Assembly: GCA_026545225.1 (NCBI GenBank) | Contig: CM048845.1 | Span: 18,445,001-18,509,000 of the forward strand | From: Cornus controversa | Lineage: Eukaryota > Streptophyta > Magnoliopsida > Cornales > Cornaceae | Length of the DNA: 64,000 bases | Direction: 5' to 3' | Part shown: positions 58,602 through 62,620 of the stretch, piece by piece | Position numbering within the stretch: position 1 is the first letter of the stretch | Layout of the letters: each line of letters opens with the position of its first letter | Translations under genes and position numbers: made by a program | Notes under the pieces: generated by a model | The model's database searches: none | What the model was told of the DNA's origin: nothing | The model's input: the letters and a program-made list of their open reading frames with translations, nothing else

Positions 58602-60806
58602 CTATCTACTGCATTGTGATGGATTTTCACAGTGTTTCAGAAACCTGTGGCCTATTTTTTCTGCTTTTAGTCGAGCAACCACTTTTTCGAGCTTGCTAAT
58701 TCTAGCTTCGATTTCCAATCCCGGTATCTCGGGTCTATGATTAGTATTGCTTTCTCCTAGATTGCTGTTGATGGTTACCATATTATAAACTGATGTTGCA
58801 GCTAGATTGCTGTTAATGCTTACCATATTACTAACCGGAGTCCTCACTCTTATTTCAATTGCATCTTCTGTCATCATCTGTGTTCTACTTTGACTTGCAT
58901 CATCTGCAATTGTTGCTGATCCTTCCATCACATGTTCTCTTTCCACAATCTTTTTTGCAGGTTTAACCACTGACTTCATTATTTGAATAGTTCTACTATC
59001 AGCAGTCGAAGATGATGGACTTTGCAATTGAAATCCAGTTGAAGGCTTGTCACCTCTACGCTTTATATTTCTCAACATCTCCGATAATGGTTGTCTATCC
59101 TCATCACTGGAATCGCTTGATTCAGCCAAAATGCATCTGGAAGGAAAACCAGGAGGAACAGCAGTATCTGTTCTTTCCAAACAATTTAAATCTCTCATCT
59201 TTTTCTTTTCAACAACATGCTTAATTGCTTCTTGCCGACCAAACTTTGTATTCCACCACTCAAAATATCGAGCAGTAACACCCAGCTGATCACAATGTCG
59301 TGGTGAAACATATAATCTCTCATCTCTAATCGGCCTCTTGTAATTACTCCAAGCAATTTCAGGACTTGCATTGGAACGAGCAACTGGACCTGGAAGATCT
59401 TGATCCAACCCAAACTGCATTGCAACTCGATGTGGGAGGTACTGCTCTATAAACCCTAGTCCAACCAGCTCACACACCCTCAAGCATAATGCAAGTGACT
59501 CTACTTTCTCATCCATCCCTTGTTGAATCAATAACCACTCTCCTTTCTCATCATAAAAGTCATGAGACAACCGCCATAGAAAACTTTCTCCAGCAGAATC
59601 TATTGTCAACCTCATATTATCAATGTTCACTTTCTTCGCTTTGTCCCATCGAGACAGTCTTGGCGCACCATAGATGATGGAACTGGCTGCTTTTGGCCGC
59701 AATGTAAGAAATCTCTCCCATGCCCAAATCTGAACAAATTGTAATGGGGCCCAAAGTGCTAAAGCAACAACATTTTCACATATACTAGTTTCTAATTTGT
59801 TTGGAGGAACAATAGTCTCTTTCAACAAACTCAAGTCTCTGTAAATTCTTGCCAGAACAGCCGGTGCAAGCGCGATTTTGGTACCTCTAGCTAGATGAAT
59901 AGCAATGGGAAAAACATATGTTCCTATAGTGTTAAATGATGGTGTTGGAAAGACAAACCTGGACAACCAAAAGGCAAGAAGCATAATTTTGATACCTCTT
60001 GTAAGAGTTTTTATAAAATATGTGAGCTAGCATAATCATTATATTTTGGTTTGCAAAAAACCATATTGGTTGGAATGTCTATTGAGCTAGATGAATAGCA
60101 ATGAAAAAACATTTGTTCATATAGTGTTAAATGATTATGTTTGAAAGACAAACCTGGACAACCAAAAGGCAAGGAATGCTTCATGCTCTATCTCACTTCC
60201 ACTGGTCATGAATTTAGCCAACCACGCATGTTGGCTGGCCTTGTTAGCTTTGCTCCTGATTATTTCGGTCCGGGCTTGGAGTAGTTTCTCTTTGGTTTCC
60301 TCCAGTTCTGTTGATTCAACAGGGTTTGAAACAGAGTCACCAAGAACAGAGTAACCTCCCAAAATCATTATATCTTCCAGAGTGATGGTTGTTTCTCCCC
60401 AAGGAAACACAAATGTGTTGGTCTCAGAACACCATCTCTCTGCAAATCCAAAGACCAAGTTGTCAATTTTTCTGATTGTGTAGGTTGAATTCATGATGGG
60501 GTTGTGAATTCCTGCTTTCTTCCACACGGATAGGTGCAAAGAATGCATGCGTTTGACCCATGTTTTCCATTTCTTTGTTGGCTGTCTCCAACCATTGAAG
60601 GCCACTTTCAGTGGTGGTTTCTTCGAATCAGAATTGGGGGTTAGAGAGGAAAGAGATGGTGAAGGAAGATCAAAGACTGGCCCATCAATGGATGTGACAG
60701 AGGGTTTGAGAAAATGGGCAATTCTGAGAGTTGGGTCTCCTCCTTTGGGTGAAACCATGAGCTCTTCTCTCTCTTCCATGATGGTCTCCTCTGCTGGTTC
60801 TGCCAT
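58602..60806 (-). CDS. Plant mobile domain (PMD) protein
   Basis: Proposed exons on the minus strand: 60806-60154 and 59958-58602 (2010 bases, 669 residues). The ATG at 60806 (MAEPAEETIMEEREELM) is chosen as the first Met of the frame. The PMD/aminotransferase-like domain (about residues 60-430) shows KKWKTWVKRM, LVFGFAERWC, FVFPWGETTITLEDIMILGG, EAFLAFWLSRFVFP, PIAIHLARGTKIALAPAVLARIYRDL and LWAPLQFVQIWAWERF. The C-terminal part is Ser-rich with two NMV(S/T)INSNL repeats (near residues 590-615) and a coiled coil (ARISKLEKVVARLKAEK). PMD proteins such as MAIN and MAIL1 act in the nucleus in transposon silencing and genome stability; related domains also ride in transposons. A full protein needs removal of the 195-bp segment; otherwise the first part stops 18 bases past the donor. 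Confidence 0.85.
59959..60153 (-). other. Putative 195-bp intron made by tandem duplication
   Basis: The sequence around both ends is the same: TTGCCTTTTGGTTGTCCAG|GTTTGTCTTTC occurs at about 60172-60143 and again at 59978-59949 (minus strand), 195 bases apart. Splicing from the first CAG|GT to the second CAG|G restores the family's SRFVFP reading. The donor GTTTGT is weak, the acceptor TTTTGGTTGTCCAG is good. Homology extends about 25 bases upstream and 70 bases downstream of each junction. See the findings. Confidence 0.72.
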
Positions 60807-61540
60807 GGATGAGATCAAGAGCATTTGAGAAATGAACTCTGAGATTTGTAACAGTTTGTGGTACAATATAACATGTAATGCTTGAAAGGTTTCAGCTAGA
60901 GAGAGAGAGAGATGAAAAATGGGAAGTGGAGTTCAGAAGTCTGTGGATCTTTTGATGTTTTTGTTTGTGTTGGTAATCATTAGGGTTTGACAACTACACA
61001 ATTTTAGATACTTTCTGTATAAATGCTTTCAAGAGAACAAACATATTTTTCAACTACTCTTTCCCAGAATTTCAAAAGTACAGAGGCACATGCACACACA
61101 GAAAAAGTATGACTAATTAGTAATTATAATTGAAGGTATGATATGACTAATTGGATAAAGAGCTCGATAAATTATTATATAATTCTGGTCATATGTGACT
61201 TGCTGAATGCTGACCAATTAAATTAGAAATCTTGTTAATTTTTTTTTATTTTTATTTTTGGTAAAGGTAACGTGTGATTTTACCGTTATGCCATCTATTA
61301 TATATTTAAATATATTGAAATTTTTTGAAGTAAAAAGACTAAAATACCCTCTCTTTTGCAAGTGACATAAACCAATATGTAAGTGTATCCCTAGAGTTAA
61401 ACTCGGAGGATGACGTCAAAATACGATCCTCTAGTCTAACCCATCAAACTCTCTCTCTCTCTCTCTCAGACCATTCTCTCTCTAAACTTCTCTCTCCTAT
61501 TCTTAATTTGTTTGATTAATCCAGAATACGATTCCTTTAT
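60807..61540. promoter_or_regulatory. Upstream region of the PMD gene
   Basis: This is the only candidate promoter region for the minus-strand PMD gene. It has a (GA)n/CT tract at 60899-60912 in the likely leader. A second CT run lies at 61450-61468. No unambiguous TATA box was assigned. Confidence 0.35.
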
Positions 61541-61712
61541 GGGTAATGCTACTCAGACAAAATACTTAGACATAATTCGTAGACAGAAACATTTACATCT
61601 ATTGGATGCATGTGGTGAGTGTATGTGGTAGGGTTTACCACATGCATCCAATGAATATAAATGTTTCTGCCTACGAATTCTGCCTAAGTATTCTACCTGA
61701 GTAGTATTACCC
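61541..61712. mobile_element. Near-perfect palindromic MULE-type MITE
   Basis: It begins GGGTAATGCTACTCAGACA and ends with the inverse ending AGTAGTATTACCC. The halves pair almost throughout, meeting near GGTAGGGTTTACC. The flanks TTCCTTTAT (61532-61540) and TTCCTCTAT (61713-61721) are a 9-bp duplication with one change, as in Mutator-like elements. Confidence 0.85.
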
Positions 61713-62003: not shown

Positions 62004-62306
62004 AGCTTGGAAGCCTCTGTAAATGCCTTTTTGTAGGTCACTTTTGTGATGGTATGGTGTGACCTTAGTTTACAAAAAGATTATTGATTAACGTGTTGGG
62101 TTTGATACGTCGCATATGTTTGAACATGTGATTAACAAAAAAATGGAAAAAAAAAAAGGTAAATGCCTGAGAGGGAGACTAGACTATTGTTATGTTTCCA
62201 TAAATTTTCTGTTCCGAGTGAAAACAAAATGACCCACTTGATAATGTGATACAACATCCCCTTTTAAATACTGCATTGTGGTGATGATGAATTTAGTTAT
62301 AATTTT
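62004..62306. other. Gene-free stretch
   Basis: No gene or repeat was recognised between the coding-like fragment and the tandem array. Confidence 0.4.
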
Positions 62307-62620
62307 ATTTATTAAAAGTACAAATGAGTTTTTTTTAGTTTCATTACACTATTTTTTTATTTTTAAATTAAAAAAATAGAATTACCCAAGTAAACTATTT
62401 TTCTTTTTTATTTATTAAAAGTACAAATGAGTTTTTTTTTTGTTTCATTACACTATTTTTTTTATTTTTAAATTAAAAAAATAGAATTATCCAATCAAAA
62501 TTCTTTCCTTCTTATTTATTAAAAGTACAAAGGGGTTTTTTTAGTTTTAGTACACTATTTTTTTATTTTTAAATTAAAAAAATAGAATTACCAAACCATT
62601 TTTCAAGCAAAACCCTTTCT
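62307..62620 (+). repeat. 103-104-bp tandem repeat x3
   Basis: ATTTATTAAAAGTACAAA opens units at 62307, 62410 and 62514. Each contains TACACTATTTTTTTATTTTT and AAAAAAATAGAATTA. Confidence 0.92.

Follow-up and report, generated by a model that had tools for sequence, protein, structure and literature searches.

The locus raises the question of how an intron may be born, and whether in this instance it could have come from a duplicated piece of the exon that it now interrupts. Within the window, by which we mean the whole 64,000-nucleotide stretch of Cornus controversa DNA that was analysed, a plant mobile domain (PMD, PF10536) gene lies on the minus strand at 60824-58602, and a sequence-only reading had proposed that tandem duplication of exonic sequence created an intron within it. 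We consider it likely, from the sequence comparisons set out below, that a spliceosomal intron was gained in this otherwise uninterrupted gene via tandem duplication of an AGGT-containing exon segment and entry of a repeat fragment.

The PMD gene and its candidate intron

The PF10536 profile is matched by two open reading frames, one at 60135-60866 (profile positions 1-123, E 7.7e-43) and the other at 58602-59984 (positions 113-347, E 1.7e-65), and both frames pass the curated cut-off of 34.9 bits, the higher score being 221.9 and the lower 147.4 bits. The gene can be divided as follows.

60154..60824, minus strand: exon 1, beginning at the frame's first ATG (60824) and ending at the base preceding the donor; open frame
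59959..60153, minus strand: predicted intron, 195 nt, GT...AG, phase 2 (AG/G); it restores a 675-aa frame, is bounded by the best-scoring frame-restoring pair of sites, and is absent in 8 of 8 loci
58602..59958, minus strand: exon 2, from the acceptor to the stop codon; open frame

The 223 codons upstream of the candidate intron are all open. When the 195 nt are removed the joined exons form a single, uninterrupted frame of 675 aa, with PF10536 matched on both sides of the predicted intron, in agreement with the earlier claim that splicing between the two copies restores the protein. It had also been claimed that a reading without splicing meets stops, and the unspliced frame does so no more than seven codons past the donor. 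The donor (first intron base 60153) comes from copy 1 of the duplicated segment and the acceptor (last intron base 59959) from copy 2. At seven of nine positions the donor, CAG/GTTTGT, agrees with the consensus CAG/GTAAGT. In rough scoring tables, which were approximate so that scores are to be read as consistency and not as proof, the donor ranked joint first among the 107 GT sites of the gene, sharing that rank with its copy at 59958; the acceptor was joint second among 175 AG sites, level with its copy at 60154. There are 6023 GT...AG pairs 60-900 nt apart, 293 of which give one open frame, and the pair 60153/59959 has the top summed score of these 293. We infer that the intron 60153-59959 is spliced.

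It is conceivable that no splicing takes place and that translation starts at the ATG of 59984 and yields the downstream piece only, of 460 aa; the frame exists, and its ATG starts 26 nt ahead of exon 2. Such a product would, however, have its PMD domain cut, with profile positions 113-347 remaining, and the codons upstream of the intron are open as well, so that we regard this reading as highly improbable.

Other repeats were seen in and near the gene. A smaller in-frame tandem duplication lies near the C-terminus at 58757-58835 (34-nt copies 45 nt apart, 88% identity) and is seen as well in three aligned relatives on C8. About 0.7 kb upstream of the ATG, at 61541-61712, an inverted repeat whose arms measure 76 nt (61541-61616 and 61637-61712, 87% complementary) and a 20-nt spacer looks like a MITE, and further upstream an A+T-rich tandem repeat (62303-62595) has three copies 101-105 nt apart.

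The tandem duplication and the 85-bp insert

Independent repeat detection recovered direct repeats at 59910-59978/60105-60173 (69 nt, 93% identity, spacing 195) and at 59889-59913/60085-60109 (25 nt, 92%, spacing 196), confirming the observation that an exon segment is duplicated 195 bases apart on the minus strand. The repeat carries on beyond these blocks: AGAGGTATCAAAAT (59999-59986) and AGAGGTACCAAAAT (59888-59875) are identical at 13 of 14 positions, bearing out the match previously noted between these two pieces. The duplicated region thus consists of the following parts.

60085..60173, minus strand: copy 1, first part, source of the donor; repeated in copy 2 at 93% and 92% identity
60000..60084, minus strand: dispersed-repeat fragment of 85 bp within copy 1, bringing stops and A+T; 25 other genomic matches, with one fixed end and the other ends varying in nine copies
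59979..59999, minus strand: copy 1, last part, 21 nt; matched at 59999-59986 versus 59888-59875 (13/14) and present in the C3 copy too
59868..59978, minus strand: copy 2, 111 nt, which provides the pyrimidine-rich acceptor and is the copy that codes; shown by the repeats and aligning with the single copy of eight loci

Copy 2 has a unit of 111 nt, as has a relative of the gene on C3, and copy 1 of the window gene, which is one base shorter, has 110 nt; the original duplication had been put at about 111 bp and in frame, and the C3 relative has exactly this length. An in-frame TAA is found in copy 1 of both the window gene and the C3 gene. The ends of the intron are tandem copies of AGGT-containing exon sequence, the arrangement that characterises intron gain by tandem duplication, and both splice sites lie outside the 85-bp insert and are not transposon-derived.

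The sequence-only reading had the duplication enlarged by about 84 bp of unrelated DNA carrying stops (60000-60083). DNA has indeed been added, but it amounts to 85 bp (60084-60000), and it belongs to a dispersed repeat. A 136-bp query gave 27 genomic matches, comprising the window gene, the C3 gene and 25 places elsewhere; 20 of these 25 were aligned, nine of them with longer flanks (up to ~5 kb on the side to which the repeat extends). The family has one near-constant end (TTCTTACA or near it), at which the insert ends too, and in the nine copies the opposite ends vary, with matched lengths from ~110 to ~580 nt. This fixed end and varying length resemble truncated retrotransposons, but no direct repeats longer than 7 nt flanked the repeat at any of the nine copies examined. 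The first bases of the insert, together with AGCT of the exon, match the family farther along, which indicates that ~70 nt of the family are missing within the insert. Because the insert is repeat-derived, the present intron is composite and not the product of duplication alone. A+T content is 71% in the predicted intron versus 58% in the exons, and the insert contains CTTAC (60005-60001), which we take to be a branch-like motif; we infer that the insert aids splicing through this motif and the added A+T.

Duplication and insert might both have been produced at once, by a faulty double-strand-break repair that made the duplication and filled in the repeat fragment together. No locus was seen with the duplication but without the insert, the insert shows no flanking target-site duplication, and the AGCT that the insert shares with the exon stands at an edge past which the repeat family continues, all of which would suit a single event. 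Against this, the insert lies inside copy 1 and not at the junction of the copies, and a unit of exactly 111 nt is left when it is set aside; a duplication that preceded the insert accounts for this most simply. We therefore think a single repair event rather unlikely, and take duplication before insertion as the probable order.

Relatives, sister copy and coding constraint

A 501-bp query against the 772-Mb genome returned 36 matches. Besides the gene itself, these comprised a full-length match on C3 (94%), partial matches at eight more PMD loci (C8 has seven; the eighth is on C1, ~13 kb away from the gene) and, for the remainder, the repeat family. In 8 of 8 PMD loci examined in this genome the segment occurs once and without the insert, the two halves of the query overlapping by 85-92 nt in the target, so that the expectation that relatives are continuous at this site holds for these paralogous loci; the junction reads AGGT in seven of the eight and AAGT in one. 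The prediction that other PMD genes have no intron here also agrees with a genome profile search (143 matches listed; 117 of 1004 candidates scored), in which the reading of intactness covers the best seven matches, all on C8, each running without a stop from profile position 1 to 346 or 347. As to the surroundings of these loci, a broken second PMD copy (L015, G000:C1:18516500-18522500), two of whose three matched pieces contain a stop, lies ~13 kb from the gene and just beyond the window, and a cluster of PMD copies on C8 (L010-L014, G000:C8, 6.64-6.92 Mb) holds uninterrupted ones among its best-scoring members and at least one that is broken. Of the C8 relatives, A6790 is broken and A6921 terminates prematurely.

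The C3 copy carries the duplication, the insert and both splice sites, with an intron of 196 nt, an insert of 85 and a unit of 111. The change is therefore older than the split of the window and C3 copies, and its presence in two copies makes an assembly error unlikely. The C3 match starts inside exon 1, the sequence beyond being from elsewhere than the PMD gene, and its stops and frameshifts mark the copy as decayed. In a nine-copy gene tree, built without the C1 relative, the window and C3 copies are sisters (support 100), which places the intron gain on their common stem; seven of the eight single-copy loci are included in this tree, on two branches. A tree of the 91-nt duplicate copies allowed all three placements (AU p 0.664, 0.496 and 0.184), and dating or rooting the duplication in this way was set aside, as 91 nt are too short and the three topologies are indistinct.

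The weak resolution of the copy tree leaves some room for the opposite polarity, in which an old intron was lost from other PMD genes, or in which the repeats of an old duplication recombined elsewhere and so excised it precisely. Such exchange between direct repeats is able to leave an exact single copy behind. An old intron does not, however, explain why the intron ends copy the flanking exon, and intron and duplication alike are absent from eight loci, seven of them placed in the tree on two branches. On these grounds the old-intron reading was set aside; we hold either form of this history to be very improbable.

In a branch-wise codon model (661 codons, 7 copies), dN/dS on the stem of window and C3, which covers time before the duplication too, was 0.48 and below 1 (2dlnL 6.1), with a background of 0.42; it was 0.65 for C3 and 0.85 for the broken C8 copy. 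On the window terminal branch it was 1.49, with no difference from 1 (2dlnL 0.29), so that a recent loss of function is possible there. Assigned exon changes since the split number 11 replacement and 3 silent in the window copy, as expected without constraint, and 27 replacement (four of them stops) and 9 silent in C3, with a further 16 changes unassignable. Recent purifying selection on the window copy was thus not argued from dN/dS alone, given only 14 assigned changes (11:3) and a ratio not different from 1.

The rates of exon and intron are a second line of evidence. Since the split, 14 of 1686 compared exon positions have changed in the window copy, as opposed to 5 of 195 intron positions (Fisher p 0.039), so that its exons evolve at about a third of the intron rate, whereas in C3 the rates are alike (36/1686 versus 5/195, p 0.61). 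The difference in exon changes between the copies, 14 versus 36, is itself marked (p 0.0026), although silent changes are fewer on the window branch too (3 versus 9 in C3). The interaction between copies in the exon/intron contrast is not significant (p 0.26), and the contrast is gone (p 0.26) when every unassigned change, 16 in exons and one in the intron, is put on the window branch. Inspection of the alignment columns for changes before the split, in the 91 nt, gave ~4-5 in the intronic copy (~5%) and ~2 in the exonic copy, with no clear asymmetry. In simulations at 5% neutral divergence, 1.8% of unconstrained frames of this length stayed free of stops, a share that rose to 35% at 1.2% divergence; when 0.10 indels per substitution were assumed as well, the frame was open in 0 of 4000 (5%) and 2.8% (1.2%).

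These results bear on whether the duplication and insert simply broke the gene, leaving an unspliced pseudogene. The clear decay of the C3 copy, the lack of an excess of silent changes on the window terminal branch and the state of A6790 and A6921 would all be in keeping with such a fate. Yet the entire 675-aa spliced frame is intact and has good splice sites, the stem ratio is 0.48, it is in the window copy alone that exons have changed more slowly than the intron, and an unconstrained frame rarely stays open at 5% divergence; we judge a pseudogene unlikely. Taken together, the constraint tests speak for a gene that went on coding, through spliced RNA, once the intron had arisen, and the intron-birth interpretation of the sequence-only reading is supported by the comparisons made here.

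Proposed route and comparison with known intron gains

In the intron-gain reading that we prefer, an ancestral exon with the proto-splice site AGGT would have undergone an in-frame 111-nt tandem duplication. The AGGT of copy 1 would have become the donor and that of copy 2 the acceptor, so that the spliced protein would equal the unduplicated one. The 85-bp dispersed-repeat fragment would then have entered copy 1, which would also have drifted, acquiring the TAA now in window and C3 copies and losing one base in the window copy; insert and drift together would leave spliced RNA as the only source of full-length protein. A tentative extension of this scheme, which we put forward as possible and not as the favoured account, is a two-stage ratchet. 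Here the in-frame duplication would at first have been tolerated, since spliced and unspliced RNA both gave readable protein, and the repeat fragment, with its stops, A+T and branch-like motif, would then have made splicing obligatory and fixed the intron. If this is true, the birth of the intron was a matter of exon duplication and mobile DNA cooperating, and not of one or the other alone.

A single genome here preserves the site without the intron, the source that was duplicated, the fragment added to it and a sister copy in decay, so that age, order and constraint can be estimated. Among the matches listed in a search of open-access literature (titles and abstract openings), no report of intron birth in a PMD gene was found. 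The PMD case is a clean new instance of a known route of intron gain, with a repeat-derived core, and not a new kind.

The earlier reading had related the locus to the known proposal that duplication of an AGGT-containing exon can create an intron, and rightly so: the introduction of PMC4974935 credits this established proposal to Rogers 1989, and a table in PMC3443670 lists 188 events for the mechanism, in species that include Arabidopsis and Oryza. The sources of gained introns are seldom identified, according to the same introduction (PMC4974935). As described in PMC4974935, the ATP2A1 case, experimentally reproduced by Hellsten et al. 2011, is like the present one in that an AGGT exon segment was duplicated, with the donor in copy 1, the acceptor in copy 2 and the protein unchanged; it differs in that the PMD intron also has an 85-bp dispersed-repeat fragment, and its splicing is predicted from sequence. 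The intron gain in potato RdRp (PMC4974935) likewise concerns a plant gene in which a recent tandem duplication created an intron, but there the duplicated stretch spanned an intron-exon boundary that already existed, whose signals were reused, whereas both PMD sites come from exon. Transposon insertion into AGGT, as treated in PMC3443670, shares with the PMD case the repeat DNA within the new intron, but here the splice sites stem from the duplication and not from a target-site duplication. Finally, as with the Introners described in PMC9860276, mobile DNA contributes to intron gain at this locus; an Introner reading was nonetheless set aside because the splice sites lie outside the repeat, which, unlike an Introner, makes up only the core of one intron here.
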